A stretch of DNA of 43,438 nucleotides, from contig JACVZY010000058.1 in NCBI GenBank assembly GCA_014654705.1, positions 1 through 43,438 on the forward strand, given 5' to 3'. Source of the stretch: Ignavibacteria bacterium (GTDB taxonomy: Bacteria > Bacteroidota > Ignavibacteria > Kapaibacteriales > UBA4661). The translations under genes were made by a program, and so were the position numbers. A model generated the notes under the pieces. It ran no database searches and had not been told where the DNA came from. It worked only from the letters and a program-made list of their open reading frames with translations. Shown here piece by piece: positions 20,267-42,547 of the stretch (position 1 is the stretch's first letter; the number at the start of each line of letters is the position of its first letter).

Positions 20267-21289
20267 TCACGCAACAAACGATGCAGCCTCATGCGTCGTG
20301 TGCTCGCCATTGCGATAGAGCGCATAGCTAAAACCCTTCGTAAGGCTAAACGCACCAATATCTCCGTTTTTCCCTAATGCCAAAAAGCCGACCTGTAGTT
20401 CTTTGTAGTCTGGTTGCTTGCGGGCGATGCGTTCTACGGCAAGTTCACAGGCTTGCTGCGGAGTTTTGCCATTGCGCATAAATTCGGTGACAAGAAAACT
20501 CCCCACAACTTTGATAACAAGTTCGCCCAGTCCCGACGATGTTGCTGCACCGACTTCGTTATCCACGTACAGCCCCGCACCTATGATGGGCGAATCTCCC
20601 ACGCGACCGTGCAGCTTAAATGCCCAACCGCTTGTCGAACACGCCCCGGAAAGATTTCCGTGCGTGTCCAGTGCCAACATCCCAATCGTATCGTGATTGC
20701 TTTTGCCAATGTGGGGTGGTTCTAATTTCTTTTTTTTGCTTTCTTCTTTGAGCCAGTTTTTCCACTCAGATTTTGCATACGGTGTGAGCAAATTTTCCCG
20801 CTTGAAGCCTTCTTTGAGTGCAAAAGCAAGCGCACCGTCGCCGGCAAGCATCACGTGTTGCGTTTTTTCCATCACCCGACGCGCAACCGAAATGGGGTGC
20901 ATGATATGCTCCAATGCCGCCACCGAGCCGCAATTCCCGAACTCGTCCATAATCGAAGCATCCAACGTTACTTTACCATCTCTGTCCGGCAAACCTCCGT
21001 AGCCCACGCTTGTATCCTTGGGGTCGGCTTCGGTGACACGCACACCTTTTTCGATTGCATCCAACGCCCTGCCGCCACGCTCCAGAACGGCAGCCGCAGC
21101 TTTATTTGCCGGAACGTTCGGCTCCCACGTTGTCAGAATAATCGGTTTTGTTGCTGGTGCAAGAGTGTTTGTTTCAAAATATTCCGGTTGGTTTGTCTTA
21201 TGTTCGTTTGCAAGTACAGTGTGGGGAAGGGCAAGTGCTGCAAGGGAAGATTGCAGAAAAGTTCGCCGCGAAAAATGATTATTGCTCAT
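20267..21289 (-). CDS. N4-(beta-N-acetylglucosaminyl)-L-asparaginase (aspartylglucosaminidase)
   Basis: This 340-residue Ntn hydrolase cleaves the amide joining GlcNAc to Asn in glycoasparagine. The N-terminus has a Tat-type signal (RRTFLQ followed by SSLAALALPHTVLA), implying folded export to the periplasm. The precursor self-cleaves before the nucleophile Thr201 in NHDTIGMLALD. Downstream GRVGDSPIIGAGLYV and GAATSSGLGE are the usual substrate loops. The frame is open to an upstream ATG at 21403, but the start at 21289 is chosen because it directly precedes the Tat motif. It is the last gene of the minus-strand glycan cluster, 125 bp after the beta-mannosidase. It would perform the final step of N-glycan breakdown. 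Confidence 0.93.
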   Translation of the reverse strand: MSNNHFSRRTFLQSSLAALALPHTVLANEHKTNQPEYFETNTLAPATKPIILTTWEPNVPANKAAAAVLERGGRALDAIEKGVRVTEADPKDTSVGYGGLPDRDGKVTLDASIMDEFGNCGSVAALEHIMHPISVARRVMEKTQHVMLAGDGALAFALKEGFKRENLLTPYAKSEWKNWLKEESKKKKLEPPHIGKSNHDTIGMLALDTHGNLSGACSTSGWAFKLHGRVGDSPIIGAGLYVDNEVGAATSSGLGELVIKVVGSFLVTEFMRNGKTPQQACELAVERIARKQPDYKELQVGFLALGKNGDIGAFSLTKGFSYALYRNGEHTTHEAASFVA

Positions 21290-21414
21290 ACTGTTGAAAA
21301 AAAATGTGTGGTGCCGTCCTGATTTTATCCTATTAAGCAAGACTCTTGCTCTGTTTCCATGTACCAATAGCAATATACACGTCTCCAGCGTACACAACAA
21401 CATCTTTACAGAAA

Positions 21415-24006
21415 TTAATACGAATCAATCAGCGATTGGACAAGAATTTGCTCTTTCGTTACGACAAACGGCTTTTCTGATTCAATTCGTACAATTTTTG
21501 TTTCACCCGGAAGTACATCGAAAAAATTGTTACTGAAGCGCACATCTGTACGGTTCGCTCCTTCGCCGCGAAGCTGAAGAAAGACATTTTTCGCAAGCGT
21601 GTTTGTCTGAATTGTGAGAAATTGTCCCGCTGCCGAGGAAGTGAGCGTGTAGTCTATCGTGGGCAGCGAGAGTTTCAAGTCTTTCGGCGAAACGAAATAG
21701 TACAGTTTTTCGGCAAGCGTTTGCGTTCCATTTTTGAAACGCACTACCAGCACCGATTCCGCGGTATTTACTTTTGGCAATTCGGCATCAAGTACCCGTG
21801 CGCATATCTGACTGGTGTTTGCTTTGGCTATTATCATCTGCGATTTCGACCACAGCACTTTGCTGTCGAAGGAGCGAAGTTGCATTTCGAGCGTGCCTGA
21901 TGTTTCATGGGGAATGTCTGAGGCAAGATGAATAATAAAGCCTTTGTCTGTGCGCTCTTGTGTACGCTGAACCAAAAATAAAAGATTGCCGTAGAGTTCC
22001 TTCACGGCATAATGAAGTGCTTTCCAACGACCTGCATAATCCACACTCGACCACGACGACACTTGCCAGCAATCGTTCAACTGCCAGTATAACGTTCCCA
22101 TGCAATACGGCATTGCGCGGCGATGTGCTTCGATTGCCGTGGTGATACCTCGCGCTTGCAAAAGTTGGCTCACATAGACGTACTGCTCAAAATTTTTCGG
22201 CTGCTTGTAGTCGCGCTGAAGATACTGCTGGATATTTTCGTACCCCGTGGGGTGCTTCTGGTGGACTTTCATCGTTGCGGATGTAAGATGCTGTTCGGGC
22301 GGCGGAGCAATCGCGGCAATTGTCGGAAGGGCAGGGAGTGACTGCATGCCATATTCACTCATAAAGCGCCCGACTTTCTTCTCGTACATCGAAAAGGGTT
22401 CTAAGCCCCACCATACACCCCAGTAATGTGCGTCGCCGCGCGTGAGACTTTCTTTCCGTCCCCATCCGAATTGAGGAGATGACCGCCAGTAAAAGCGTCC
22501 GCTGTCATAGCGAGCAATTACATCCGGCAAGACCTTATGAAAAACTGTTTCGTACCAGTGCCAGACGGTCGCAGAATCGGCGGCGGAATAATTGAATTGC
22601 TTTTGCCAACCCCAATTTTGCCAGCCTTCGTCAATTTCATTGTTGCCGCACCACAACGCAATACACGGATGATTCCGCAGTCGCTTGACGTTATCAACGG
22701 CTTCGCGGCGAACATTTTCCACAAACGCGGAGTCACCCGGATACATGGCGCAAGCGAACATAAAATCTTGCCAAATCAAAATCCCGTGTTCGTCGCAGAG
22801 TGTGTAGAAATCATCGGCTTCGTACGTGCCGCCGCCCCAGACGCGGAGCATATTCATATTTGCCGCCGCCGCATCTTGCACGATGCGCTTGTAAGTGTCT
22901 TGTTTTACGCGCGGCAGAAAACTATCAGGCGGAATGTAGTTCGCGCCTTTCATAAAAACAGACTGCCCGTTGAGTTCGATGGCAAAACCTACGCCCATAG
23001 AATCGGGACGTTGCACAATCTTGATTGTTCGTAGCCCGATGGAAATGGTTTTGCTACTAAGAACTTCATTACCAGTGCCATCCGGCAGCACCTCGCAAGC
23101 AAATGTGTATAAATGCGGTTTGCCCAAACCATTCGACCACCAAAGTTCGGGTTTAGGAATAACCCAATCTACGCTCACGGTTTGTACACCGCGCTTGAGC
23201 GTCTCACGGCGCGAACTGACTATTGTTTGCAAACGCCCGTCAGCACTTTTGCTTTCAGCACTTCTGTTTTGCACGCGAAAAATGTATGTGCCTTTGGTTT
23301 GAACATTCACTTCGTACTCTGCTCGCAGGTGCGCCGCGTGTTCATTCAGCGATTCTTGGCGAAGAGCTACGGATTCCACACGAATATCGTTCCATGCTTC
23401 CAGTTGTACCGACCGCCACACACCGCAGGAAACAAAGCGTGGTCCCCAATCCCAACCGAATTGATATTGTGCTTTGCGTGTAAACACTTTTTCATCGCCC
23501 GGTAAGGTGGGGCGGATATTTTTGCTCAACTCGCGCCCACGACGCACGGCGGAAGCAAACACAATGCGAAGTTCATTGCGTCCGCTTTTTGCAATGCGCT
23601 TGCAGTCCACACGCCACGTGCGAAACATATTGTCGGCGCGAAGAACAAGCGAATCATTGACAAACACCTCGGCAAAAGTGTCGAGTCCTTCAAACACAAG
23701 GTCAATGTTGGAGTGTCGTAATAACGCAGAATCGCAGATAAACTGTGTGCGATATTCCCAATCCGCGCTGTCTATCCATTGCAAACCGCCTTCGTTTGTG
23801 CCGTAGAACGGGTCGGGAATTTTGTTATTGCGTAGCAAATCCAAATGTACCATCCCAGGAACTTCGGCGGGTAACCATACGGCATCGCTCAGTTTTCGGA
23901 ATTGCCACGTGCTGCCATCCAGTGTCAGCGTTTGTACGCCGGAGTATGTGCTCACAGCAGATAACATAAGCAGTATCAAGCAAGCAAGCGAAGTGCGGTA
24001 ATTCAT
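21415..24006 (-). CDS. Beta-mannosidase, glycoside hydrolase family 2
   Basis: This 863-residue protein has a signal peptide at 1-22, then the GH2 order: sugar-binding jelly roll (25-205, WLPAEVPGMVHLDLL, NDSLVLRADNMFRTWRVD), Ig-like domain (210-330) and TIM barrel (335-690). The acid/base is E457 in WCGNNEIDEGW and the nucleophile E551 in SEYGMQSLPA. The WGGGTYEADDFY segment near 390 and the QYGFDWGPR-like YQFGWDWGPR near 181-190 are typical of beta-mannosidases rather than beta-galactosidases. The C-terminal 170 residues are Ig-like. It would remove the core beta-1,4-mannose from chitobiose. It sits between cutC and the asparaginase gene in the same orientation. Confidence 0.92.
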   Translation of the reverse strand: MNYRTSLACLILLMLSAVSTYSGVQTLTLDGSTWQFRKLSDAVWLPAEVPGMVHLDLLRNNKIPDPFYGTNEGGLQWIDSADWEYRTQFICDSALLRHSNIDLVFEGLDTFAEVFVNDSLVLRADNMFRTWRVDCKRIAKSGRNELRIVFASAVRRGRELSKNIRPTLPGDEKVFTRKAQYQFGWDWGPRFVSCGVWRSVQLEAWNDIRVESVALRQESLNEHAAHLRAEYEVNVQTKGTYIFRVQNRSAESKSADGRLQTIVSSRRETLKRGVQTVSVDWVIPKPELWWSNGLGKPHLYTFACEVLPDGTGNEVLSSKTISIGLRTIKIVQRPDSMGVGFAIELNGQSVFMKGANYIPPDSFLPRVKQDTYKRIVQDAAAANMNMLRVWGGGTYEADDFYTLCDEHGILIWQDFMFACAMYPGDSAFVENVRREAVDNVKRLRNHPCIALWCGNNEIDEGWQNWGWQKQFNYSAADSATVWHWYETVFHKVLPDVIARYDSGRFYWRSSPQFGWGRKESLTRGDAHYWGVWWGLEPFSMYEKKVGRFMSEYGMQSLPALPTIAAIAPPPEQHLTSATMKVHQKHPTGYENIQQYLQRDYKQPKNFEQYVYVSQLLQARGITTAIEAHRRAMPYCMGTLYWQLNDCWQVSSWSSVDYAGRWKALHYAVKELYGNLLFLVQRTQERTDKGFIIHLASDIPHETSGTLEMQLRSFDSKVLWSKSQMIIAKANTSQICARVLDAELPKVNTAESVLVVRFKNGTQTLAEKLYYFVSPKDLKLSLPTIDYTLTSSAAGQFLTIQTNTLAKNVFLQLRGEGANRTDVRFSNNFFDVLPGETKIVRIESEKPFVVTKEQILVQSLIDSY

Positions 24007-24095
24007 AGTGTTGTCAGATAAGTAAGTATCTGGACGGTGATACTTGAAACACAGATAAGAAAGAACTGTGCCAATGAAACCAGATTAATGCTGTT

Positions 24096-24878
24096 TCAAT
24101 TATACGTGAGTGGCACATTATGTGCTTCTTCCGCAAGCATCCGAATAGCGCGAACTCGCGCGCTGTCGGTGAAGGAGAGTGCATATTCCATGCCTTCGGC
24201 GCTTCCCATTGAAACGTCTTCGTTGCGGAAGACCATCCGACTCTCGCGCTTGACCCTGCCGGAGACGTGGAACTCACGAGCGTTTGTTTGGCGGAGAATC
24301 TGCGCTACGTTGGTTTCGCTTACGCCGCCGCCGGGCATGATGATAATGCGGTCGCCTGCTTGCTCAGTAAGTTCAGCAAGCAACTTCGCTCCGTGCTGCG
24401 CGGAGCGCTCTTGTCCCGAACTCAGCAGACGCTCACAACCAAGCGCAATAACATCTTCCAAGGCTTGACGCGGGTCGGCGGTCATATCGAAAGCGCGATG
24501 GAACGTTATCGACATCCCGTCCGCCAGTGTGATGAGTTCACGGCAACGCGCCGTATCTACTCTGCCGTCTGGCAAAAGTATTCCCAGCACAACGCCGTGA
24601 ACGCCAAGTTCTTTACACATTTTGATATCGGCTTTCATCACCTCAAATTCAGTATCGGAGTATAAAAAATCCCCGCCACGTGGTCGGATGATGACGTTGA
24701 TATCTATGTCCAAGAGTTTTCGGGCGACGCTGATAGCGCCATAGCTGGGCGTAGTGCCGCCTTCGCCTAAATTATCGCAGAGTTCTATTCGGTTTGCCGT
24801 GCCTGCTTGGGCGGCAATGGCGGATTCGAGCGAATTCGCGCATACTTCAATAACGACGTTCTGTACTTTCATAACCAA
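24096..24878 (-). CDS. cutC: CutC-family TIM-barrel protein
   Basis: This 260-residue protein contains the whole CutC signature: VVIEVCANSLESAIAAQAG at the start, AxRIELCDNLGEGGTTPSYG, VIIRPRGGDFLYSD, DGRVDTARC, ITFHRAFDM, RLLSSGQ and IIMPGGGVSETN. The family was named for copper tolerance, but in Bacteroidota the gene is repeatedly found inside sugar-utilisation loci, and a metabolic enzyme role is possible. It lacks a signal peptide, so it acts in the cytoplasm, unlike the flanking exported hydrolases. The 200-bp upstream gap contains a palindromic repeat. Confidence 0.9.
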   Translation of the reverse strand: MVMKVQNVVIEVCANSLESAIAAQAGTANRIELCDNLGEGGTTPSYGAISVARKLLDIDINVIIRPRGGDFLYSDTEFEVMKADIKMCKELGVHGVVLGILLPDGRVDTARCRELITLADGMSITFHRAFDMTADPRQALEDVIALGCERLLSSGQERSAQHGAKLLAELTEQAGDRIIIMPGGGVSETNVAQILRQTNAREFHVSGRVKRESRMVFRNEDVSMGSAEGMEYALSFTDSARVRAIRMLAEEAHNVPLTYN

Positions 24879-24976
24879 AAGGGTGGTGGTGTGTCAACAT
24901 TGCGGAAGATAGCGGAATAAACTACAAATGTGGTCAACTCTTACCAATAAGACGTTCGCAAAATGGTTTTTTGCAT

Positions 24977-25053
24977 GAACAGACAAGAGTGTCTGTTCCA
25001 CTAAGAATAAAGAGTATGGGAAGTCTTTGTGGCACAGACGCTCCTGTCTGTGT
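24977..25053. repeat. Interspersed double palindrome, copy 1 (ACAGACA...TGTCTGT type)
   Basis: Hairpin one spans 24977-24998 (GAACAGACA, 4-nt loop, exact complement). Hairpin two is at 25033-25052 (CACAGAC/GTCTGTG). The spacing and intervening sequence match the copy near 32130. It lies between cutC and the GH20 gene. The form resembles REP-type mobile palindromes. Confidence 0.65.
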
Positions 25054-25078
25054 TACGAAGGTTGAGTATCTATGAGCT

Positions 25079-26776
25079 TTACGGCAGAGCAGATTTAGAA
25101 TAATTCACCTTCATTGCATCAAGCAATTGAGTGTGCTGCTTCAAGCGTCCCATAAAAGCGTCATAATTTTTTTGCTCGGGCGGTGTCCAGACAACTTCTG
25201 CAAGCGCACAAAGGCGTGGCAAAAGCATATATTCGACCTTGTCGGGTGTGGCGATATATTCTGTCCAGAGATTTGCTTGTGCACCGATAATGTATTGCTG
25301 CTCGGCGGGAGTAAGTTCTTTCGGAAGAGGTTCGTAACGATAAACTAGGTCTAACGGTACAAAGCCACCGATAGCAAGTGGTTCGCCGGGCTTTTGGGAT
25401 TGATAATAATCGAAATAGACGGTCGTTGTTGGCGACATCACGACCGGATGATGTTGCTTTGCCGCTTCGATACCGCCTTTTTCACCACGCCACGACATCA
25501 CAGCTGCATTTGGCGCAAGCCCACCTTCTAAAATTTCATCCCAACCGATAATCTGCCGACCTTTGCTGTTCACAAATTTTTCGATGCGCTGTATGAAGTA
25601 GCTTTGCAATTCGTGTTCGTCTTGCAAGCCTTGTTTTTTGATGAGCGCTTGACAAAACTCAGATTCTTTCCATCGGTCTTTCGGGCATTCATCACCCCCG
25701 ATGTGAATGTATTTGCTGGGAAAAATAGCAATGACTTCTGCCAGAACGTTCTGCAAAAATTGGAAAGTTTCTTCTTTTGGGCAAAACACATCGTAAAAAA
25801 CGCCCCAATTTCCGATAACTTCAAATGGTCCGGGTGTGCTGGCAAGTTCAGGATAAGCAGCCACAGCCGCAGAAGCGTGTCCGGGCATTTCAATTTCGGG
25901 AACGACTGTAATATGCCGCTTACGAGCGTACTCGACTACTTCGCGAGCATCCGCTTGGGTGTAATAACCACCGTAACGAATGGAATCATACCGAACGGGT
26001 TTTTCGGTGTAATGCCCGATGAGCGTACCTTTGCGGTATGCGCCGACGCTGGTCAGTTTCGGATATTTTTTGATTTCCAAGCGCCAGCCTTGATCATCGG
26101 TCAAGTGCCAGTGAAAAATGTTCATCTTGTAGAGCGCAAGATAATCAATATATTTTTTTACAAAGTCTTTCGAAAAAAAATGACGCGACACGTCGAGGTG
26201 CATTCCGCGCCATCCGAAGCGAGGGTAATCTTCTACAACGCACGTGGGCAGTGCAAACATTTTCGTGCTTTTGCTCAATGCTTGGTTCGCGGGCTGACTC
26301 GCAGGCAGTAATTGCAAGAGGCTTTGCAAACCATAAAATACGCCGGCATTATTGCCTGCAATCGTAATTTCTTTTTCTCCGATGGTGAGTGTGTATGCGT
26401 CTTTGTGGGCATGGGCAGTTTGCTTGTTTGTCTCAATTTTAGTGCTTACGAGGCGAATGACCGATGCTGCCGATAATTTTTGCGATGCTGCGGCACGTTT
26501 CACTTTCAAACGAAAGCCAAAATGTGCTGCAAGAAATTCGTTGAATACGGTTGCGTCGGACTCCGTTTGTGAGCCGTTGGTGAGAATGAGCGTTTTTTCA
26601 GAGAGCTGAAAGGTTGCGTTTGCTTGCTGCCCGGAGGGCAATGTGGGAGCTTCACGCACCACAACTGGTTGAGGGATAATAGGCAGTATTTGCTTTGGGG
26701 TAGTGTCTGCTGCATGACTTTGGGAAAGGCTTCCAAAGAGAATGCAGAATACGACGAGAGGGAATGAGTATCTCAT
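25079..26776 (-). CDS. Beta-N-acetylhexosaminidase, glycoside hydrolase family 20
   Basis: This 565-residue protein has a signal peptide at 1-22 (MRYSFPLVVFCILFG...), an alpha/beta GH20b domain (about 28-180) and the catalytic barrel (185-545). The catalytic pair D362-E363 lies in HIGGDECPKDRW, with FHWHLTDDQGWRLEI near 221-235 and EIEMPGHASAA near 294. It releases terminal GlcNAc or GalNAc with help from the substrate acetamido group. The frame is open to 26911, but the ATG at 26776 is preferred because it starts the signal peptide and because the extra 45 codons would be translated across a strong terminator hairpin. The periplasmic enzyme fits removal of antenna or chitobiose GlcNAc. Confidence 0.93.
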   Translation of the reverse strand: MRYSFPLVVFCILFGSLSQSHAADTTPKQILPIIPQPVVVREAPTLPSGQQANATFQLSEKTLILTNGSQTESDATVFNEFLAAHFGFRLKVKRAAASQKLSAASVIRLVSTKIETNKQTAHAHKDAYTLTIGEKEITIAGNNAGVFYGLQSLLQLLPASQPANQALSKSTKMFALPTCVVEDYPRFGWRGMHLDVSRHFFSKDFVKKYIDYLALYKMNIFHWHLTDDQGWRLEIKKYPKLTSVGAYRKGTLIGHYTEKPVRYDSIRYGGYYTQADAREVVEYARKRHITVVPEIEMPGHASAAVAAYPELASTPGPFEVIGNWGVFYDVFCPKEETFQFLQNVLAEVIAIFPSKYIHIGGDECPKDRWKESEFCQALIKKQGLQDEHELQSYFIQRIEKFVNSKGRQIIGWDEILEGGLAPNAAVMSWRGEKGGIEAAKQHHPVVMSPTTTVYFDYYQSQKPGEPLAIGGFVPLDLVYRYEPLPKELTPAEQQYIIGAQANLWTEYIATPDKVEYMLLPRLCALAEVVWTPPEQKNYDAFMGRLKQHTQLLDAMKVNYSKSALP

Positions 26777-26798
26777 GGCAATAGGAAAAAAACATAAC

Positions 26799-26929: not shown

Positions 26930-28516
26930 TTACTTATCCCACCACACGCGACTGGTCATTACGTTTCCGCCGGTAATCCGTCCGACAGCTTCGGTATAGT
27001 TTTGGGCATTAGAAACAGCTTCTTGAGCGGGATACGGCAAGCGACGCGGAATAGTGCCTCCCGTCGCGTTACCCGGATAGACAACGGGTGTGAGCTGCGG
27101 ATAACCGCTTCTACGCCAATTCGACCATGACTCAATGTCGTTCAAGAATGTTGCCACCCAGAACTGCGTGTTGATTTGTTCCAGTTTCTCAGTGGTCGAG
27201 CCGGAACCTTTGAAGGGATTTGCGGTCAAATATGCCGTGATGTCGGCTGCAGGAATGACGGCGCTTGCGCTGAATTGCGCTACGGACTGCATACCTTCGG
27301 TAACAGCCTCTTGGTAGAGAGCATCGGCTGTTTTGCCGACGCTGTAACCGCGAACAGCAGCTTCAGCGAGCAAAAGTTTTACTTCCGCCGAGGTGAGAAT
27401 GAAGGTTGGACCGTCCATGCGAGCAACAATTTTATTGTTCGGGCGTGTGTATTTGTCGAGCGAGCCGGGATAGCCGGGAGCTTTAGAAATATCTTGTGCA
27501 CCGCCCGACAAGTCATAACCATTCGGCATACCCAATTGGTCTTCGGGTTTTGTACTTTGGTCGCCGGCGCGTTCGCCCAAGAACTGCAAGCGTGGGTCTT
27601 TTGTTGTTTTCAAAAGGTCAACGAATGTGCGGCTGAGGCGAATGTTCGGAATCTCATAAGGCAGATTCATTACTTGGCTAAGGCGATTGACCGTTGCACG
27701 GTCGCCGGCAAGATCGTGATTAACAAGCGCGTTATCGTTGGCGTTTTGCATCACACCGCCTGCTGCTGCTTTTTCTACCCATGTTTTTGCTTGTGCTGCA
27801 TCCACTTTTGTAAGGCGCATACCAAGGCGTACCATGAGCGAGTATGCGAATTTTTTCCATGCTGCCACTCGTGCTGCGCCGGAGAGCTTGCCGTAGAACA
27901 AATCGCCATTCGGTACAGGTTCGGTTGCGCTCAATCCTGTTGCCGCTTCATCGAGTTCTTTGAGCATGTCAGCGTAAATTGCTGATTGCTGGTCGTACTT
28001 CGGAGTAAAGCGGTCTGCGGCTGTGCTGTAATATGCTCGTCCGCCACCAAAGTACGGTACGTCGCCGTAAATATCGGTGAGACGGTGGAAAATAAGCACT
28101 CGCAAAATACGAGAAATTTGATATAGATTTTTGTACTGCGGCTGCCCTTTGGTTTGTTCCACTAAGTGCTGCACAATACGAATTTGCTCATCGTAGGAGC
28201 GCTCGAAGTATGACGACGCATATGCGGCATTCAGCAAATACTTATCGCCAACCCAATAGCCAGCAACGTGTGAGAAGTGCTGCATCATGGTCGAGCAGTA
28301 AATCAAGTTCGTCCGCCATGTTTCATAGCTAAAGTCCGTACTGCCGGTGTAGGTCAGTTGTGATGTTGTGAGCAAGTATTCCGAGTTGAACGATTTATCG
28401 TCAGGGCGCACCGGGTCGGTGTTCAAGGTCTCGAAGTCTTTTGTACATCCGGTTGCCACAATGAACACCAGAGCAAAGACTGCAAAACTTTTGGTTGAGT
28501 TTATGCGGAGTTTCAT
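26930..28516 (-). CDS. SusD/RagB-like glycan-binding lipoprotein
   Basis: This 528-residue protein is a lipoprotein with lipobox VATGC (Cys24) followed by TKDFETLNTDP, the usual SusD start. Its sequence is of the SusD-like_2 type: FSYETWRTNLIYCSTMMQH, an YQISRILRVLIFHRLTDIYG helix, FAYSLMVRLGMRL, and the C-terminal block QFWVATFLNDIESWSNWRRS with RRLPYPAQE. It forms the lid over the SusC transporter in the outer membrane and binds the incoming oligosaccharide or glycopeptide. It follows susC by 42 bp in the same operon and is closed by a terminator 85 bp downstream. The ligand cannot be read from sequence. Confidence 0.94.
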   Translation of the reverse strand: MKLRINSTKSFAVFALVFIVATGCTKDFETLNTDPVRPDDKSFNSEYLLTTSQLTYTGSTDFSYETWRTNLIYCSTMMQHFSHVAGYWVGDKYLLNAAYASSYFERSYDEQIRIVQHLVEQTKGQPQYKNLYQISRILRVLIFHRLTDIYGDVPYFGGGRAYYSTAADRFTPKYDQQSAIYADMLKELDEAATGLSATEPVPNGDLFYGKLSGAARVAAWKKFAYSLMVRLGMRLTKVDAAQAKTWVEKAAAGGVMQNANDNALVNHDLAGDRATVNRLSQVMNLPYEIPNIRLSRTFVDLLKTTKDPRLQFLGERAGDQSTKPEDQLGMPNGYDLSGGAQDISKAPGYPGSLDKYTRPNNKIVARMDGPTFILTSAEVKLLLAEAAVRGYSVGKTADALYQEAVTEGMQSVAQFSASAVIPAADITAYLTANPFKGSGSTTEKLEQINTQFWVATFLNDIESWSNWRRSGYPQLTPVVYPGNATGGTIPRRLPYPAQEAVSNAQNYTEAVGRITGGNVMTSRVWWDK

Positions 28517-28558
28517 AATAATTTTGAGAAAGAATAATAGACGTTGTAAGGAGTAAAC

Positions 28559-32275: not shown

Positions 32276-33178
32276 TTACAAGTGACTCAAAAACGATGTA
32301 AGGTTTTGCGAGCGGGGAATATCGAATTTCTTGCGCACGTTCAAGCGGTGGAACTCCACGGCATCGGAGCTGACGGACAAAATATGGGCTATTTCTTTGG
32401 TGGAGAGATTGATTTTGAGGAGAGTGCAGACTTTTATTTCCATCGGTGTCAGCGTTGGGCAGAGATTGTAGAGACGCTGCAAAAATTCTGGATTGGCATT
32501 GTAGAATTGCTTTTCAAATGGCTCCCACGCTTTTTCGTCCGTGATGCTGCTGTGAATTTCTTTGGCAATGTCGTCCAGCACGGCGGTTGTGCTTTGAATC
32601 ACTTGCTTCAAGCGGTTTTCTAATGCTTCCAAAAGCTCGTTTTTTTGAGCGAGTTGTAGCGCCATAAGCGTTAGTTCGCGCTGCATGAGGCGTTCGTTTT
32701 CTTTGTTTTTTTCGTCCAGTTCGCGTGTGCGGTGTTCTACTTTTTGTTCCAGAAGTTGATTGTGTTCGGATAAATGCTTCAAAAGTTCTTTGTTCTCGCG
32801 CTGTAATTGGTGGACGTGCACCGCGCTATCAATCGTCATCTTGAGGTCGTGATTATTCCATGGCTTTGCGATGTAGCGATAGACCTGTCCTGAATTGATA
32901 GCCGCAATCACTGCTTCGATGTCACTGTACGCCGTCAGCAAAATACGCACCGCGTCCGGAGCAAGCACAAGAGCTTGTTCCAGAAATTCTACACCCGTCA
33001 TCTCGGGCATACGCTGGTCTGCCAGAATGACCGTGATGGGACGGGACTTAAATAAGGCAAGAGCTTCTGTGCTGCTTGATGAGGTAATCACCTCATAATG
33101 CCGTTCAAAAAGACCTGCAAAGATAAAGAGATTTGGCTCTTCATCATCCACATACAAAATTGTAGGACGTTCGTGCAT
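32276..33178 (-). CDS. Response regulator: receiver, coiled coil and LuxR-type HTH
   Basis: This 300-residue protein has a receiver domain at 5-122 (acidic D11-D12, phospho-acceptor D54 in ILADQRMPEMTG, T82 and K105 in YIAKPW), then a long coiled coil (about 120-200, rich in E, K, L and Q) and a C-terminal LuxR/GerE helix-turn-helix (LTPMEIKVCTLLKINLSTKE, then VSSDAVEFHRLNVRKKF). The receiver is of the RpfG-like AKPW class. It is encoded 37 bp after the sensor kinase and is its likely partner. Lying between the ROK kinase and susC, it is the best candidate for the local activator of the glycan locus. The target sites are unknown. Confidence 0.9.
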   Translation of the reverse strand: MHERPTILYVDDEEPNLFIFAGLFERHYEVITSSSSTEALALFKSRPITVILADQRMPEMTGVEFLEQALVLAPDAVRILLTAYSDIEAVIAAINSGQVYRYIAKPWNNHDLKMTIDSAVHVHQLQRENKELLKHLSEHNQLLEQKVEHRTRELDEKNKENERLMQRELTLMALQLAQKNELLEALENRLKQVIQSTTAVLDDIAKEIHSSITDEKAWEPFEKQFYNANPEFLQRLYNLCPTLTPMEIKVCTLLKINLSTKEIAHILSVSSDAVEFHRLNVRKKFDIPRSQNLTSFLSHL

Positions 33179-35675: not shown

Positions 35676-36639
35676 GTTTCTCCAACTCTTTCCACATCAG
35701 CGCCGATGCGCCCAGCACGGCAGCATTTTTGTCCATGAGTTCGGAGAGAAGCAAGCGTGTTTTGCCTTGAAAGATATTTAGCGTGGTTTCTTCCATCGCA
35801 CGGCGTGTGGGGTTCAGTATCAAATCTCCCGCATTTGCCAGTCCGCCAAAAAGAATCACGGCTTCGGGACTGAAACACGCAATTACATTCGCCAGCGCTT
35901 TGCCAAGAGTAGCGCCCGTGAGTTCAAATGCCGTTTGTGCCAGTGAGTCGCCTGCTTGTGCTGCCGAGCTGATAGCTGCTGCGGTCATAGCATTAAAACT
36001 TACATCGCGCAACCCACTACTTTCGGTGCGCTCGGCAAAAAGTTCGACCATCGTGCGGCGTATTCCGCTTGCCGACGAATACGTTTCCAAGCACCCGCGC
36101 CGCCCGCAGCCGCACATTCTGCCGTTTTCTTTCACAATCGTGTGCCCCAGTTCTCCTGCGAAACCGTCCGAACCATAGAGTACATCGCCATTGACCACAA
36201 TCCCACTACCTAAACCCGTTCCCAGCGTGACGACAAGAAAATGTTTCATCCCACGCGCTGCGCCGAAAAGCATTTCGCCGAGTGCCGCAGCGTTGGCATC
36301 GTTGGTGAGCGCAACGGGAACGCCAAAACGCTCGTGGACAAGCTGACGCATATAGACGATATCACCCCAATTCAAATTTGCTGCTTGCTCAATCGTTCCG
36401 GAGTAATAATTTCCATTCGGCGCACCAATGCCGATGCCTTTCATTTCGCACGTTGCCGAAACGGTTGAGTAGAGCGACTCAATCGAATCGTAGAGACGCG
36501 GTAAGTAATACTCAACCGGCTCGGAGGCACGAGTCTGAAGGAATGTTTCGGCAAGACAAACGCCTTGCGCATCTACTACTCCCAGAACAGTATTTGTGCC
36601 GCCAATATCAATTCCAAGAGTAACTGCTTGCAGTGCCAT
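35662..36639 (-). CDS. ROK-family sugar kinase
   Basis: This 325-residue protein has the ATP phosphate loop LGIDIGGTNTVLG (residues 8-20), the catalytic base D114 in TNDANAAALGE, a second phosphate loop LGTGLGSGIVVNG (139-151), the sugar contacts E163 and H166 in AGELGHTIV, and a structural zinc site CGCGRRGCLE (C176, C178, C183). There is no N-terminal helix-turn-helix, so it is an enzyme and not a ROK repressor. Likely substrates are GlcNAc, mannose or glucose; in this setting GlcNAc or mannose released from glycans is most plausible. The frame is open far upstream, but the ATG at 36639 gives the standard N-terminus. It heads an apparent operon with the sensor kinase and regulator and is divergent from GH92. 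Confidence 0.92.
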   Translation of the reverse strand: MALQAVTLGIDIGGTNTVLGVVDAQGVCLAETFLQTRASEPVEYYLPRLYDSIESLYSTVSATCEMKGIGIGAPNGNYYSGTIEQAANLNWGDIVYMRQLVHERFGVPVALTNDANAAALGEMLFGAARGMKHFLVVTLGTGLGSGIVVNGDVLYGSDGFAGELGHTIVKENGRMCGCGRRGCLETYSSASGIRRTMVELFAERTESSGLRDVSFNAMTAAAISSAAQAGDSLAQTAFELTGATLGKALANVIACFSPEAVILFGGLANAGDLILNPTRRAMEETTLNIFQGKTRLLLSELMDKNAAVLGASALMWKELEKLGTL

Positions 36640-36969
36640 AAGGACAAGAATGGAGTGAAAAAGATGAGTGCTGTGCGATGAATCGTTTCGTAAAAATAAG
36701 AACATTCCACTCGCAGAACCATATATTTGCAAAAGGAAAAGCACAAGGAAAATAAGAGGAAAAATACCGATTGCCAAACGTAACGCCGTCAAACAAGGCT
36801 TACTCCATTCGCACGGAATAATACTGGCAATCGCCTTGTAATGGAGATAAACAAATCTTCTGGTATTTTCAGGCGAAAATGTTTGTGTTTGTGTTCTGTT
36901 GGCTGTGAAATGTCCATCATTCTTGAAACCATAGAAAAATATTTCCTCATCTCTGAAACAACAACTTCC
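36640..36969. promoter_or_regulatory. Divergent intergenic region between ROK kinase and GH92 genes
   Basis: This 330-bp stretch must hold promoters for both directions. On the plus strand TATATTTG at 36722-36729 fits the TAnnTTTG -7 consensus, but no clear -33 TTTG is at the right distance. No hairpin, riboswitch or convincing inverted repeat was seen. Confidence 0.35.
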
Positions 36970-39900
36970 ATGACCACCCATACCTTTCTTTGCAATATCT
37001 TTGCGTTTCTTGCTCTCTTCAGCTATGAAGCTGCATATAGCCAGAACGTTCAGAAAAAAACATTGCCCAAAACGACACAAGAAGCCGCCACGAAATACAC
37101 GAGTTTCGTTAATCCCTTTGTCGGCACTGATGCGCACGGACACACCTATCCGGGAGCGGTAGTCCCGTTCGGGATGATACAACCCAGCCCCGACACGCGC
37201 TTGACGGGATGGGACGGTTGCTCCGGGTATCACTATTCGGATTCTATTGTGCATGGTTTTTCTCACACGCATTTGAGCGGTGTGGGCGTGTCGGAGTATG
37301 GCGACGTTTTGATGATGCCGACGGTGGGCGCGGTGTCGTGGAAGGGAATTGAAGACAGTGCAAGCAGAAAGGGCTACGCTTCACGTTTTCATCACGCAAA
37401 AGAGCAAGCGCGTCCAGGTTATTATGCCGTGCAGTTGGAGGATGATAATATTTTTGCCGAACTCACCGCCACAAACCGCGTCGGTGTTCACCGCTACACG
37501 TTTCCGGCAAGCCGGGAAGCAAACATCATTCTGGATTTGATGCACCGCGATAAAGTCTTGGAATCTACTCTGCGCGTCGTCGGAAAAAATCGTATCGAGG
37601 GCTATCGCCGCTCCGATGCGTGGGCGCGTGACCAGCGTGTCTATTTCGTCGCAGAGTTTTCCAAGCCATTCGCGTCGTTTGGCATTGCCACAAACGATAC
37701 GCTCCGTAGCAAAACCGACAGCGCAAGCGGCACAAATCTAAAAGCCTTCGTGCGCTTTACGACGAAAAAAGGCGAACAAATTCTCGTCAAAGTTGCTATC
37801 TCTGCTGTGAGTTTGGACGGCGCACGAAAAAATTTGCAAGCCGAAGTAAGTCACTGGAATTTTGACAAAGTGCGCCAAGATGCCGATGCTGCGTGGGAAA
37901 AAGAATTGTCGGCAATTCAAGTGAGCAATGCGGGTACGGGCGGCGGCACGACCGAACAACTCCAAACATTCTACACGGCGCTCTACCACACTATGAACGC
38001 ACCCAACGTGTTTATGGATGTGGACGGGCAGTATCTCGGCTTGGACAAAAAAATTCACACGGCAAAAGACTACACGCACCACACAATTTTTTCGCTCTGG
38101 GATACCTTTCGCGCTGCGCATCCGCTCTATACCATCATCCAGCCCAAGCGCACACGGGACTTTATCAAAACGTTGTTGGCAGATTACGAAGACGGCGGGC
38201 GGCTTCCGGTCTGGGAATTGGCGGGCAACGAAACGGATTGTATGATTGGCTATCATTCGGTGTCGGTGATTGCCGATGCTGCTGCCAAAGGCATTACCGA
38301 TTTTGACAAAGAACTGGCGCTCAAAGCCATGAAGAACAGCGCCGAACTGAATCACTTCGGTCTGGAGGCGTACAAAAAGCAAGGCTTTATCGGCATCGAA
38401 GATGAACACGAATCCGTCTCGAAGACGCTGGAATATGCCTACGACGATTGGTGTATCGCGCAAATGGCGAAAGCACTCGGCAAAGCTGACGATTACGCAA
38501 CCTATATGCGGCGGGCGCAATACTACAAAAACCTCTTTGACCCCGAAACAGGCTTCATGCGTGCTCGCAAGAATGGCGGTTGGTTCACGCCCTTCGACCC
38601 ACGCGAAGTAAATTTTCATTATACCGAAGGCAATAGCTGGCATTATAGTTTTTTTGCGCTGCAAGACATCAAGGGTCTGATACGGCTTCTGGGCGGCATT
38701 GAACGCTTCGATGCAAAAATTGATGCCCTTTTCAACGCTAATCCGCAAACAACCGGACGCGAACAAGCCGATGTGACGGGACTCATCGGGCAGTATGCGC
38801 AAGGTAACGAACCGAGTCATCATGCGGCTTATCTTTACAATTATGCAGGCAAACCGTGGAAAACGCAAGCGATGGTGCGCCGCATTCTCGACAGCCTTTT
38901 CACGCCGAAGCCCGACGGACTTTCCGGCAATGACGATTGCGGGCAGATGTCGGCGTGGTACGTTTTGAGCAGTTTGGGTTTGTACGCCGTTACGCCCGGT
39001 TCGCCCGTGTATGCTATCGGTTCGCCGCTTTTCTCGGAAGCGCGTTTGAAACTTGAGAATGGAAAAACGTTTGTCGTGAAGGCAAATAACAACTCCAAAA
39101 GCAATGTCTATATCCAGTCTGCCACATTGAACGGCAAGCCATACACGAAATCGTTTCTCACGCACGCGGATATTGTTGCAGGCGGAGAACTCGTCTTCAC
39201 AATGGGCGCTGTGCCAAATACGGCTTGGGCTTCGGGCGAGAATGACAATGCCGCATCAAGCATCAGCGATGTGCCATTTGTTTCCGTGCCGATTATCGAA
39301 TCAACCAATCATTCGTTCAAAGTTTCAATGGAAGTGCGGATGAAGAATGCTGATGATGGGCAAGGCACGAAAATTTTCTACACGACCAATGGTTCTGAGC
39401 CAAACACAAGTACGCCGCTTTCCTCAACAGCTTCTACGAAACTTTACACAAAGCCGTTCCTCGTGACCACGACCTGCACCGTGAAAGCGTTTGCGGTCAA
39501 TGCGCAAGGCGAAAAAAGTTTTACTGCTACGGCGCAGTATTTTCATGTTGCTAATAGTTGGAACGTCCAGCTGCTTTCGGAATACGTGCCGCAGTATGCA
39601 GCCGGAGGCGCAGGCGCATTAGTGGACGGCTTACGTGGTGGGCGAGATTTCCGCACGGGAGCGTGGCAGGGATACCGAGGCAAGGACTTCGAGGCAATCG
39701 TGGATATGGGAACGCTGCAAACAATTACCAAACTCGGCGCGGGTTTTTTGCAAGATGTTCGCCCGTGGATTTTTATGCCGAAAAGTGTCGAATTTGCCGT
39801 GTCGGTGGATGGAATAACATTCACGAAAGTGGCAACCATTCAGAACACTGTTTCAGATACCGATTATACCGTCGTCACCAAAGATTTCGTGCAAACTATT

Positions 39901-40020
39901 CCCGCACAAAAAGCACGCTACGTGAAAGTGTTTGCCCGCAACTACGGCGCTTTACCACGCTGGCACGAAGGCTTTGGCGGTGAGGCGTACATTTTTGTGG
40001 ATGAGATTTTGATACAATAG
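36970..40020 (+). CDS. Alpha-mannosidase, glycoside hydrolase family 92, with C-terminal carbohydrate-binding domains
   Basis: This 1016-residue protein has a signal peptide at 1-24. It shows the GH92 N-terminal domain (FVNPFVGTDAHGHTYPGA, PFGMIQPSPDT, GFSHTHLSGVG) and catalytic (alpha/alpha)6 barrel (about 310-750), with putative acid E421 in ELAGNETDCMIGYHS, the YTEGNSWHYSF and GNEPSHHAAYLYNY motifs, and putative base D655/D656 in GNDDCGQMSAWY. GH92 enzymes are calcium-dependent inverting alpha-mannosidases. Beyond residue 800 lie a chitobiase C-terminal-like domain (IFYTTNGSEPNTS) and an F5/8 type C (CBM32-like) domain (WQGYRGKDFEAIVDMG, VEFAVSVDG, WHEGFGGEAYIFVDEI). The frame is open upstream to 36841, but the ATG at 36970 directly precedes the signal peptide. 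It heads the plus-strand operon. Confidence 0.95.
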   Translation: MTTHTFLCNIFAFLALFSYEAAYSQNVQKKTLPKTTQEAATKYTSFVNPFVGTDAHGHTYPGAVVPFGMIQPSPDTRLTGWDGCSGYHYSDSIVHGFSHTHLSGVGVSEYGDVLMMPTVGAVSWKGIEDSASRKGYASRFHHAKEQARPGYYAVQLEDDNIFAELTATNRVGVHRYTFPASREANIILDLMHRDKVLESTLRVVGKNRIEGYRRSDAWARDQRVYFVAEFSKPFASFGIATNDTLRSKTDSASGTNLKAFVRFTTKKGEQILVKVAISAVSLDGARKNLQAEVSHWNFDKVRQDADAAWEKELSAIQVSNAGTGGGTTEQLQTFYTALYHTMNAPNVFMDVDGQYLGLDKKIHTAKDYTHHTIFSLWDTFRAAHPLYTIIQPKRTRDFIKTLLADYEDGGRLPVWELAGNETDCMIGYHSVSVIADAAAKGITDFDKELALKAMKNSAELNHFGLEAYKKQGFIGIEDEHESVSKTLEYAYDDWCIAQMAKALGKADDYATYMRRAQYYKNLFDPETGFMRARKNGGWFTPFDPREVNFHYTEGNSWHYSFFALQDIKGLIRLLGGIERFDAKIDALFNANPQTTGREQADVTGLIGQYAQGNEPSHHAAYLYNYAGKPWKTQAMVRRILDSLFTPKPDGLSGNDDCGQMSAWYVLSSLGLYAVTPGSPVYAIGSPLFSEARLKLENGKTFVVKANNNSKSNVYIQSATLNGKPYTKSFLTHADIVAGGELVFTMGAVPNTAWASGENDNAASSISDVPFVSVPIIESTNHSFKVSMEVRMKNADDGQGTKIFYTTNGSEPNTSTPLSSTASTKLYTKPFLVTTTCTVKAFAVNAQGEKSFTATAQYFHVANSWNVQLLSEYVPQYAAGGAGALVDGLRGGRDFRTGAWQGYRGKDFEAIVDMGTLQTITKLGAGFLQDVRPWIFMPKSVEFAVSVDGITFTKVATIQNTVSDTDYTVVTKDFVQTIPAQKARYVKVFARNYGALPRWHEGFGGEAYIFVDEILIQ

Positions 40021-40080
40021 AACGAGGCGCAAAAGGTCGGAGCTAAAAAACGTTGATCCATTATTTTTTGAATATCCTCC

Positions 40081-40764
40081 ATGAAAACAACAACGAGTAT
40101 TCTTTTTGCAATCTTGCTTTGCTTTTTCATTCCTGTTTCTATGACAAGCCAATCCCCCCAGCGCGTCATTTTCTTTGGTGATTCCATTACCGAACTTGGT
40201 GTGAAGCCCGATGACTACATCGTAAAAATAAAAGAACGTCTTGAAAAAGACGGTAAAAGCAATCAGTATGAACTTATGGGAGCAGGCGTGAGCGGCAACA
40301 AAATTTACGATTTGTTTTTGCGGATGGAGGACGACGTTCTTCGCAAAAATCCTGCAATCGTCGTTCTGTATATCGGTGTGAATGATGTGTGGCATAAATC
40401 GCTCACCGGCACAGGAACAGATGCCGATAAGTTTGAAAAATTTTACAGCGCGATTCTTAAAAAACTTCAGGAAAAAAATATCAAACCGATTGTCTGTACA
40501 CCGGCGGTGATTGGTGAAAAAAATGATTGCTCGAACCAGCAAGACGGCGACCTGAACAAGTATTCGCAGATTATCCGAACGCTTGCTGCCGCGTATCATG
40601 CTCCGCTGTGCGATTTGCGAAATGCATTCACCGAGTACAGCCTGAAAAATAATCCGACGAATAAAGAGTCGGGCATACTCACGACCGACAGAGTACATCT
40701 GAACGAAAAAGGAAATCAGCTTGTCGCCGATATGCTGCTGCCGCTTCTGGTTGGTAGTCGGTAA
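40081..40764 (+). CDS. Secreted SGNH/GDSL hydrolase
   Basis: This 227-residue protein has a signal peptide at 1-23, followed by the four SGNH blocks: FFGDSITELG (nucleophile S35), GAGVSGN (Gly, near 68-73), YIGVNDVW (N101) and TDRVHLNEKG (D203, H206). Family members are acyl esterases or lipases. In glycan loci they usually remove O-acetyl groups from sugars, so a deacetylase that unmasks the glycan is the likely role. It lies 60 bp after GH92 and 55 bp before the GH123-like gene, on the same strand. The exact substrate cannot be told from sequence. Confidence 0.9.
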   Translation: MKTTTSILFAILLCFFIPVSMTSQSPQRVIFFGDSITELGVKPDDYIVKIKERLEKDGKSNQYELMGAGVSGNKIYDLFLRMEDDVLRKNPAIVVLYIGVNDVWHKSLTGTGTDADKFEKFYSAILKKLQEKNIKPIVCTPAVIGEKNDCSNQQDGDLNKYSQIIRTLAAAYHAPLCDLRNAFTEYSLKNNPTNKESGILTTDRVHLNEKGNQLVADMLLPLLVGSR

Positions 40765-40819
40765 GAAGTCTTTCAAGAAATTACAGTGTTATCACCAACG
40801 TTCCCAATCTGCTTGAATT

Positions 40820-42547
40820 ATGCACTACCTTTCCCGTTTTCCTCTCTATCGTGCGATTGTTATGCTGCTGGCTGCTGCTGTACTTGCATGCAGTCAGTAT
40901 GTATCTGTTTTGGCGATGCCGCTGGATACACAACCAACATTCGTTTTTGTTGACCCTCTGGAAAAAGTTTTGCCTGACCGCAGTTATTTCCCTGACACTC
41001 CGGCAGAAATGCACGTGTGCAAGGGCGAACACGCCGGCTTTCAGTTTGTGCTTTTGCATGACAAAGACATGAGCGCTTGCACGGTACGCGTAGAAATCAA
41101 GGATGCAAAAGGCACGACTGCTGCCTTCCAAACGCAAACGGGCTTTGTGGGTTATGTTCACGTCGGGCGCTCGGTTCCCGTGCGCGGCTACGACCAACTT
41201 TTTTCGCCATCAGGATATTATCCCGATCCGATTATGGAACTCCCTACACGCGACGTACCTGCTCGCACACCGCAACCCATCTGGCTCACCGTTCCTATTC
41301 CGGCAAACACGGCAGCAGGAACATACACGGGACAAATAACCGTATCGGGGAACACCGACGGCAAACCATTCTCGCGGTCAAAATCGTTTACGATGGTGGT
41401 GCATCCCGTCACGCTCGGCGCACAAAAACTGTGGGTAACGAACTGGTCGTTTTTTGGAGAAGGGCAGGTATCACTTTTGAATGGTGGCAAAAAGGTAGAA
41501 CCCTACTCCAAAGCGTATTGGGAAACCATGCGCCTGAGCGCCCGAGCAATGAAAATGTTTCGTCAGAATGTCGTACTCGTTAGCCCTTTGCACCTGATGG
41601 ATTTTTCGCTGAAAAATGACACGTACACATTTGACTTTGCCAAGTTCGACACGATGGCAACAATTTTTATGGACGAAGGTGCGATTGGTCGGCTTGAGGG
41701 CGGGCATATCGGTGGGCGAGTGGGTACATGGGAAACGCCGTTTGTGGTGGGTGTTCCCGAAAAGAAAGACGGCAAGATTATCTTTACGAACAAACCCATT
41801 GATGATGCCTCTGCGCAAAAATTCTACCGTCAGTATTTTCCGGCATTGGTGGCGCACTTGAAAGCGAAAAAATTGCTCAGTGCCTATATGCAGCATCTTG
41901 CCGATGAGCCGATACCATCGAATACGACTTCGTATATTGCGATTGCAAAATTTGTCAAAAGCATTGCGCCGGAACTCCGCATTATCGAAGCCTGCCACTC
42001 GAAAGATGTTGGCGAGACGATAGACGTATGGGTTCCGCAGTTAAATTTTTTTCACGAAGACTCCACGTTTTACCAAGAGCAACGCAAAAAAGTGGGGAAA
42101 GAAGTGTGGTTTTATACGTGCCTTGCGCCTCAAGGAAACTACGCGAATCGGTTTATTGAGCAGCCACTTATCAAAGCACGATTGCTGCACTGGATAAATT
42201 ACCGTTTTGGTGCAGTGGGCTATTTGCACTGGGGCTGGAATGCGTGGAGCGAGAATCCATTTGGCGAAACAAGTGGCGTTATTCCAGAGTTGGGTAATTT
42301 TATGCCTGCGGGCGATGCGTGGATAGTCTATCCGGCTCCGGGAAAAATTTGGAGTTCTATTCGCATGGAAGCAATGCGCGACGGCATTGTGGATTATGAG
42401 TTGCTGACAATGCTCACGAAAAAATTTCCCGACCGCGCACAAGAAATGGCACGGCAAGTGGTCTATCGGTTGGACTGGTACGACACCGACATTCAAACGT
42501 TTCGCGCAAAACGCAAGGAATTACTAGAGTTGCTTTCCGAACGTTGA
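40820..42547 (+). CDS. GH123-like (DUF4091) glycoside hydrolase
   Basis: This 575-residue protein has a signal peptide at about 1-32, an N-terminal beta-sandwich (40-200, CKGEHAGFQFVLLHDKD, IWLTVPIPANTAAGTYTG) and a TIM-barrel-like domain (205-530) with MQHLADEPIPSN, whose adjacent D362-E363 correspond to the acid pair used by GH123 enzymes for substrate-assisted hydrolysis of beta-GalNAc. The C-terminal LHWGWNAWSENPFG and MRDGIVDYELLTML segments are typical of the DUF4091/GH123 group. Known GH123 enzymes are beta-N-acetylgalactosaminidases, but many DUF4091 proteins are untested, so specificity is inferred. It is the last gene of the plus-strand operon. A beta-GalNAc activity would extend the locus beyond high-mannose glycans. 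Confidence 0.82.
   Translation: MHYLSRFPLYRAIVMLLAAAVLACSQYVSVLAMPLDTQPTFVFVDPLEKVLPDRSYFPDTPAEMHVCKGEHAGFQFVLLHDKDMSACTVRVEIKDAKGTTAAFQTQTGFVGYVHVGRSVPVRGYDQLFSPSGYYPDPIMELPTRDVPARTPQPIWLTVPIPANTAAGTYTGQITVSGNTDGKPFSRSKSFTMVVHPVTLGAQKLWVTNWSFFGEGQVSLLNGGKKVEPYSKAYWETMRLSARAMKMFRQNVVLVSPLHLMDFSLKNDTYTFDFAKFDTMATIFMDEGAIGRLEGGHIGGRVGTWETPFVVGVPEKKDGKIIFTNKPIDDASAQKFYRQYFPALVAHLKAKKLLSAYMQHLADEPIPSNTTSYIAIAKFVKSIAPELRIIEACHSKDVGETIDVWVPQLNFFHEDSTFYQEQRKKVGKEVWFYTCLAPQGNYANRFIEQPLIKARLLHWINYRFGAVGYLHWGWNAWSENPFGETSGVIPELGNFMPAGDAWIVYPAPGKIWSSIRMEAMRDGIVDYELLTMLTKKFPDRAQEMARQVVYRLDWYDTDIQTFRAKRKELLELLSER

Follow-up and report, generated by a model that had tools for sequence, protein, structure and literature searches.

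The window analysed here is one entire contig of 43,438 bp (JACVZY010000058.1; C58) from the draft genome of an Ignavibacteria bacterium (G000; 5.7 Mb, 118 contigs), and both of its ends are assembly ends. Judging from its sequence, we consider it likely (probability about 0.78) that this Rep3/ParA plasmid-type Kapabacterium contig carries a SusCD-type locus for N-glycans and for stubs of N-acetylglucosamine linked to asparagine (GlcNAc-Asn). The locus is a variant of the N-glycan polysaccharide utilisation locus (PUL) that bears a glycosylasparaginase (AGA), lies on a plasmid-type replicon and has a decayed endo-enzyme. The strain has lost its presumed glycoside hydrolase family 18 (GH18) endo step. 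Its exo-only look is a loss and not the plan of the system, because a GH18 remnant lies in the window and intact GH18 genes occur in relatives. The exo-only claim is explained away, and the part worth following is the partnership of AGA with CutC.

Families were assigned by Pfam and NCBIfam profile searches, with gene starts set by eye, and each of the 12 protein-coding genes in the locus received a family (Table 1). In order of transcription, the minus-strand row runs ROK, 7TMR-DISM kinase, LuxR-type regulator, SusC, SusD, GH20, CutC, GH2 and AGA. A divergent plus-strand row holds GH92, an SGNH esterase and a GH123-type enzyme. With SusC next to SusD, a set of glycoside hydrolases and a regulatory gene, the locus has the make-up of a SusCD PUL. 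We observed this gene content and order, the GH18 remnant, and the relatives' intact GH18 and GH47 genes directly. The gene set probably strips sugars off glycoprotein fragments down to the last asparagine-linked sugar.

A decayed GH18 gene lies at the end of the locus

We searched ten genomes of the family (G000 to G009) with the GH18 protein of G009, from a sister genus. The three matches were G009 itself, an intact gene in G001, from the same genus as the window (71%), and window positions 42593-42862, with an internal stop. In translation the window match is 54% identical to residues 222-312 of the G009 protein, with one stop (E = 2.9e-24); at the nucleotide level it is 80.5% identical over 282 bp to the intact G001 gene (E = 3e-71). 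Aligned in full, the remnant spans 42590-42922 and contains a stop and a frameshift. Roughly the first 215 residues are missing from it, among them the catalytic motif, which lies at residue 145 of the G001 frame. The four intact genes that we compared between the window and G001 (AGA, GH2, CutC and GH20) are 86-91% identical at the nucleotide level, so the remnant diverges faster. It starts 42 bp past the GH123 stop codon, and GH18 likewise follows GH123 in G009. GH18, intact or as a remnant, occurs in the same three of the ten genomes as high-scoring AGA (G000, G001 and G009).

Searches for GH18, GH85, GH163 and PNGase F found no intact classical N-glycan endo-enzyme in G000; the acid-type PNGase (PF12222) was not searched for. 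GH85 and GH163 had no match genome-wide, and each model matched one control genome, GH163 under its cut-off only. The N-terminal model of PNGase F also had no match genome-wide and matched four of four other genomes tested. The genome-wide GH18 search returned one intact match, a 353-residue protein encoded on contig C59 downstream of an mnmG-like open reading frame (ORF). Pfam assigns it to GH18 only, and by eye we take it to be YaaH/SleL-like. We rejected it as the missing endo-enzyme on account of its different contig, its neighbour and this look. The explanation that GH18 had simply been lost beyond the contig end was replaced by the remnant found in the window.

The original prediction had described a lysosome-like design without an endo-glycosidase, naming GH18 and GH85 as absent, and had held that an endo-glycosidase lying just outside but within the same operon would refute it. 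GH85 indeed had no match genome-wide. For GH18 the statement is right only in part, given the intact gene on C59 and the decayed copy in the window. That copy, just past the earlier end coordinate 42547, is such an endo-glycosidase in decayed form. The truncated remnant is the only GH18 in the window, which lacks the functional GH18 expected of a high-mannose N-glycan PUL of the B. thetaiotaomicron type. A presumed endo-glycosidase nonetheless belongs to the system, as the remnant directly downstream of GH123, the intact GH18 beside GH123 in G009 and the intact gene in G001 indicate. A tempting endo-free inference is thus corrected by a decayed gene 42 bp beyond the last listed gene and by a fuller locus in relatives.

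Relatives carry a fuller locus

The fuller locus lies on a 51,729-bp Rep3/ParA contig of G009, of which positions 2001-51729 were searched. Homologues of 10 of the 12 locus genes are present at 52-79% identity: ROK, AGA, GH92, GH2, CutC, GH20, GH123, SGNH, SusD and SusC. The two-component pair of the window had no match in the searched part, which holds an ECF sigma/FecR pair. We observed an intact GH18 gene (E = 2.2e-50) between GH123 and GH20 on the same strand, with DGVDMDWE in its translation. The contig also carries GH47 (E = 1.2e-120), GH3, a GHL10 protein, ParA and Rep3.

Intact GH18 and GH47 genes are present in G001 as well, whereas a search of G000 for GH47 gave no match. G001 has the gene row GH20-CutC-NagB-GH2-MFS-AGA, and its NagB and MFS transporter support GlcNAc as a product. 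The NagB of this row (L036, 10806-12824, minus strand) resembles glucosamine-6-phosphate deaminases and carries a fused PIG-L/LmbE domain. From gene context, we infer that the GH18 enzymes of the relatives are endo-beta-N-acetylglucosaminidases rather than chitinases.

The asparaginase is a predicted glycosylasparaginase

The top solved matches of the window AGA are N(4)-(beta-N-acetylglucosaminyl)-L-asparaginases (369 bits versus 135 for the best isoaspartyl peptidase), and on these scores we rejected an isoaspartyl peptidase. The beta chains of solved glycosylasparaginases start at residue 239 of the window protein, and T239, the predicted threonine nucleophile (HDTIG), is invariant across 14 aligned sequences. 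With threonine at the autoproteolysis site and the closer likeness to glycosylasparaginases, the protein is a predicted enzyme of EC 3.5.1.26. Its N-terminus, MSNNHFSRRTFLQ, presumably matches the twin-arginine (Tat) motif. The earlier claim of a Tat-exported glycosylasparaginase therefore holds by sequence for the enzyme type, and the export is predicted from this Tat-like motif. The other Asparaginase_2 copy of the genome, on C45, is a weak match to the window AGA.

We sampled AGA loci as the best 80 of 589, with flanks of up to 10 kb (16 of the 80 were shorter than 15 kb). The nearest of these is from a Candidatus Kapaibacterium metagenome-assembled genome (MAG), phylum Bacteroidota, and the organism of the window probably falls within or close to Kapabacteria. 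GH20 was present in 24 of the 80 loci, GH2 in 18 and GH92 in 10; throughout the Bacteroidota, mannosidase/hexosaminidase clusters recurrently have AGA as a companion. Endo-enzymes leave GlcNAc attached to asparagine. Glycosylasparaginase requires an asparagine whose amino and carboxyl groups are both free (PMC6960285), so AGA would act after proteolysis, on the GlcNAc-Asn stub. More plausibly, then, AGA harvests the stub that endo-enzymes leave.

CutC is a partner gene of AGA

CutC, called present at more than 60 bits, was the commonest neighbour of AGA and occurred in 48 of the 80 loci. It was the next gene to AGA in 34 of the 76 loci where ORF picking kept AGA. GH20, GH2 or GH92 was also present in 25 of the 48 CutC-bearing loci, and the remaining 23 had none of them, which suggests that CutC goes with AGA and not with the mannosidases.

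This association extends to 395 genomes of the phylum, in which CutC was over its cut-off in 123 and AGA reached at least 345 bits in 146. Both were present in 102 genomes and neither in 228 (odds ratio 25, Fisher P = 8e-38, kinship ignored). In 56 of the 102 genomes the two genes were no more than 10 kb apart (no more than 3 kb in 53), compared to about 0.5 of 102 expected by chance at 4 Mb. By hand count, these 56 genomes span 12 family labels. We examined 20 of the 21 loci from genomes with CutC only. In four of them CutC lies next to an AGA of lower score, and one holds a CutC-GH2-GH92 row.

Several observations weigh against a tight partnership. CutC was absent from 32 of the 80 best AGA loci, and among the 395 genomes 44 had AGA without CutC and 21 had CutC without a high-scoring AGA. 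Control genomes of E. coli, Caulobacter and Lactococcus carried CutC too, and the P value takes no account of kinship.

For the flanks of the AGA-CutC pair, 55 proteins were hand-picked from 127, omitting the known GH20/GH2/GH92 rows and most second neighbours. These proteins matched 98 Pfam families. The 25 listed include a carbon-nitrogen hydrolase in four proteins, GH125 in two and peptidase families in several, and no copper family. Ten proteins flanking other CutC genes shared no theme. We found no published description of the AGA-CutC pairing; the nearest was a STITCH prediction for Xanthomonas (PMC5700972). Two loci of Luteibacter and one of Xanthomonas (L058, L075 and L127) also have CutC directly after AGA or overlapping its frame. 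A locus titled Bifidobacterium breve (L131, CALPIE020000052.1) carries a Bacteroidota-type GH20-AGA-CutC-GH2 group and is probably a mislabelled or mixed MAG.

A candidate substrate for CutC

The window CutC matches human CUTC (3iwp; E = 5e-73, 49% identity), and its model (pLDDT 93.6) superposes on it with a root-mean-square deviation of 0.9 over 245 residues, placing it in the CutC family by both sequence and fold. Its match to the NCBIfam CutC equivalog was 235 bits, under the cut-off of 311. E11, R30, E32, C34, R65, D131 and H204 are among the residues invariant in 34 chosen CutC sequences, and together they look like an active site; the conserved Glu, His and Asp residues of the window CutC are at positions 11, 32, 127, 131 and 204. 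Beyond CutC entries, a fold search returned phosphosugar TIM barrels such as MfnB, HPS, PdxJ and TrpF (Z about 17-21); this common fold alone does not show the function of CutC. Of two cysteines that we take to be the human CUTC copper site, the second is present in all 34 aligned CutC sequences, whereas only 20 of these have the first.

The AGA product, 1-amino-GlcNAc, is described as non-metabolisable and as unstable at acid pH (PMC6960285); at neutral pH, an enzyme that handles it would benefit the cell. CutC may be a GlcNAc-Asn catabolic enzyme rather than primarily a copper protein, acting for example by hydrolysing or rearranging 1-amino-GlcNAc; we rate this reading as rather unlikely. 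According to a review, the copper binding of human CUTC is weak and a chaperone role is improbable (PMC11083455). The cutC region of E. coli gives rise to the small RNA MicL (PMC8216713), which may confuse cutC deletion phenotypes. Cytosolic PNGase leaves a glycosylamine too (PMC9102325). Were the role correct, human CUTC would process glycosylamines from cytosolic PNGase (NGLY1), and the pairing with AGA would hint, from genome data, at what this family does in organisms from bacteria to humans. CutC, whose role is unclear up to humans, gains a strong genomic partner and a candidate substrate.

Other evidence speaks against such a role. CUTC depletion raises copper sensitivity, from which a role in copper homeostasis of undefined mode was concluded (PMC11083455). 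Lactobacillus casei uses GlcNAc-Asn, and the text of that report makes no mention of CutC (PMC6960285). Since AGA seems to be exported and CutC to stay in the cytoplasm, the glycosylamine would need import.

Proposed pathway and alternatives

We infer the substrates, compartments and step order of the pathway as follows. SusCD would import glycopeptides or oligosaccharides to the periplasm, where GH92, GH123, GH20 and GH2 would trim the glycans. AGA would then cleave the last GlcNAc from free asparagine, yielding aspartate and 1-amino-GlcNAc, which would give GlcNAc, and ROK would phosphorylate a freed sugar. In the full locus of the relatives, with GH18 and GH47 added, GH18 and AGA would be complementary, AGA serving as a clean-up of the stub left by the endo-enzyme. 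Since GH18 is decayed and GH47 was not found, the window strain would either trim glycopeptides from the outside in and then use AGA, or live on stubs and oligosaccharides freed by others. The original prediction of SusCD import and periplasmic finishing keeps its N-glycan/GlcNAc-Asn catabolism, which the relatives' GH18, GH47, NagB and MFS genes support, and loses its endo-free design.

The lysosome breaks down glycans stepwise, and the window could hold a self-sufficient pathway of this kind that ends at GlcNAc-Asn and lacks an endo-glycosidase by design. The searches (GH18, GH85, GH163 and PNGase F) that found no intact N-glycan endo-enzyme family in the genome agree with this, as does the company that GH20, CutC and GH2 together keep with AGA in 15 of the 80 best loci, in whose flanks (all 80) we observed one GH18-like and one weak PNGase-like ORF. 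We nevertheless consider such a design quite unlikely, in view of the GH18 remnant in the window, the intact GH18 in the same row of G009 and the PNGase F-type genes of all four outside AGA genomes tested. The likeness of the GH123-type enzyme to an oligosaccharide-releasing beta-N-acetylgalactosaminidase also means that a purely exo-acting window is not assured. The enzyme resembles 8k2j, NgaDssm by entry name and an oligosaccharide/monosaccharide-releasing enzyme, across almost its full length. NgaDssm frees galactose-N-acetylgalactosamine (Gal-GalNAc) as well as GalNAc from p-nitrophenyl substrates, and its natural substrate is unidentified (PMC11087588).

The strain could also be a scavenger that takes GlcNAc-Asn, the corresponding peptides and free N-glycan oligosaccharides released by neighbours, for which the loss of GH18 would be cheap. 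The frames of AGA, GH2, GH20 and GH92 stay open while GH18 is lost, and the glycopeptide product of GH18 cross-feeds other microbes (PMC10154615). We regard this as possible, at somewhat less than even odds; it is a form of the N-glycan explanation and does not exclude it. A chitin or amino-sugar locus, with AGA incidental and GH18, GH20, GH123, ROK and NagB acting on chitin or GalNAc-rich glycans, appears very unlikely. The chitinase-type entries nearest to the relatives' GH18 and a chitin-binding SusD (8j0p, E = 1.7e-31) among the SusD matches point towards it. The window SusD is, however, nearer to 5j5u (E = 2e-70), and the GH2 beta-mannosidase, GH92, GH47 and AGA do not fit chitin breakdown, in which we know of no role for them.

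The N-glycan reading itself has points against it. The nearest solved match of the relatives' GH18 is chitinase-type (6xyz, E = 5e-36; best 60 of 135), and its matches to the EndoS, EndoH and ChiD models are all under cut-off. GH47 could sit where the draft assembly of G000 has a gap. The fragmented assembly of G001 has GH18, GH47 and AGA on separate contigs, and their linkage there is not established. Among the 12 locus genes there is no peptidase to free the asparagine, and the window SusD matches BT3984, the SusD of B. thetaiotaomicron, less well (E = 2.4e-25) than its best PDB match, 5j5u.

Comparison with known systems

The high-mannose PUL of B. thetaiotaomicron uses SusCD uptake, as the window locus would. 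With GH18 (BT3987) and three GH92 enzymes (PMC10154615), it resembles the full form of the locus; the window differs by AGA and CutC, the decayed GH18 and a SusD distant from BT3984. Neither 'asparaginase' nor 'CutC' occurs in the text of this N-glycan review (PMC10154615), and we found no paper on glycosylasparaginase in a PUL or in Bacteroidetes.

The alf-2/AsnA2 system of L. casei (Fuc-GlcNAc-Asn) likewise has a glycosylasparaginase that yields aspartate and 1-amino-GlcNAc, followed by a sugar kinase. In contrast to the window locus, AsnA2 has no signal peptide, a fucosidase takes the place of mannosidases, and uptake is by MFS rather than SusCD (PMC6960285).

The GH20-AGA-CutC-GH2 neighbourhood of the 15 loci mentioned above occurs in Chryseobacterium, Flavobacterium, Elizabethkingia and others. 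Unlike the window, these loci have a SusC-like gene in one case, GH92 in two, and SusD and GH123 in none. The PNGase F-type genes were present in four of four AGA genomes, three of them with the GH20-AGA-CutC-GH2 group, whereas the window genome had no match. The solved AGA relative is, we presume, of the E. meningoseptica type.

The nix cluster of Xanthomonas serves plant N-glycan breakdown by exo-enzymes and differs in being proteobacterial. It resembles the window in having an asparaginase in its neighbourhood, and STITCH links VirK with CutC, NixI and that asparaginase (PMC5700972).

Other genes of the locus and the replicon

The enzymes named earlier (GH92, GH2 beta-mannosidase, GH20, AGA, SusCD and ROK) were borne out by Pfam, NCBIfam and PDB matches. 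That inventory had left out CutC, the SGNH esterase, the GH123-type enzyme, the 7TMR-DISM kinase and the LuxR-type regulator. GH92 matched the NCBIfam model aman2_put at 711 bits, over its cut-off, and the alpha-1,2-mannosidase 6f8z in PDB (E = 9.5e-203). The glucokinase-subfamily NCBIfam match of ROK was under cut-off; in PDB it matched a glucokinase (E = 4.3e-50) and an N-acetylmannosamine kinase domain (E = 9.4e-36).

Table 1. Features annotated in the 43,438-bp window
Feature	Position	Strand	Evidence
Rep3 replication initiator	10492..11412	-	Pfam Rep3_N E 1.6e-16, Rep3_C E 1.2e-13
ParB-like protein	17180..18052	-	Pfam ParB_N E 1.3e-4, 22.3 bits, under Pfam cut-off 26.3
ParA-type ATPase	18049..18774	-	Pfam AAA_31 E 7e-31
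Glycosylasparaginase AGA (PF01112 Asparaginase_2)	20267..21289	-	Pfam E 1e-70; start re-set to MSNNHFSRRTFLQ
GH2 beta-mannosidase	21415..24006	-	Pfam Mannosidase_ig and GH2 domains; top PDB 2je8 beta-mannosidase, E 1.6e-207
CutC family TIM barrel	24096..24878	-	Pfam E 1e-70; no signal peptide by eye
GH20 beta-N-acetylhexosaminidase	25079..26776	-	Pfam E 1.6e-124; top PDB 6q63 beta-hexosaminidase, E 2.9e-162
SusD-like protein	26930..28516	-	Pfam SusD-like_2 E 4.7e-73; lipoprotein-like start by eye
SusC-like TonB-dependent transporter	28559..31672	-	NCBIfam OMP_RagA_SusC E 4.6e-183, over cut-off
Response regulator, LuxR-type DNA-binding domain	32276..33178	-	Pfam
7TMR-DISM sensor histidine kinase	33216..35642	-	Pfam; start chosen by eye
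ROK sugar kinase	35662..36639	-	Pfam E 1.4e-63
GH92 alpha-mannosidase, C-terminal F5/8-type domain	36970..40020	+	Pfam E 9.5e-190
SGNH/GDSL esterase	40081..40764	+	Pfam E 6.1e-24; 68% identical gene in G009 locus
GH123-type beta-N-acetylgalactosaminidase	40820..42547	+	Pfam GH123_cat E 3.1e-51; PDB 8k2j E 1.5e-148, residues 44-574
Decayed GH18 gene, 3' part only	42590..42922	+	In-frame stop, frameshift, catalytic region missing

A replication initiator and partition genes mark the contig as a plasmid-type replicon, as had been proposed. Rep3 is 26% identical to plasmid initiators across 94% of its own length and is accompanied by ParA; the ParB match is weak and under cut-off, and this protein has a 36% match on the G009 contig. 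We observed no terminal overlap of the contig, as would close a circle, at the lengths tested. Rep3-type initiators lie on five G000 contigs (C111, C58, C99, C32 and C113), which suggests several plasmid-type replicons in this genome.

Between Rep3 and ParA (12061-17045), a LytTR response regulator and a His_kinase lie beside a MacB/FtsX-type permease. A dispersed repeat of about 50 bp (87% identity) occurs at window positions 35552-35605 and on the same-genus contig L036 at 122-168 and 7944-7997. A giant minus-strand ORF of at least 3299 residues (2-9898), with FG-GAP, SBBP and DUF7948 domains, is cut by the contig start. At its end, the G009 contig has a giant TIG/NHL repeat ORF that adjoins Rep3, as in the window.

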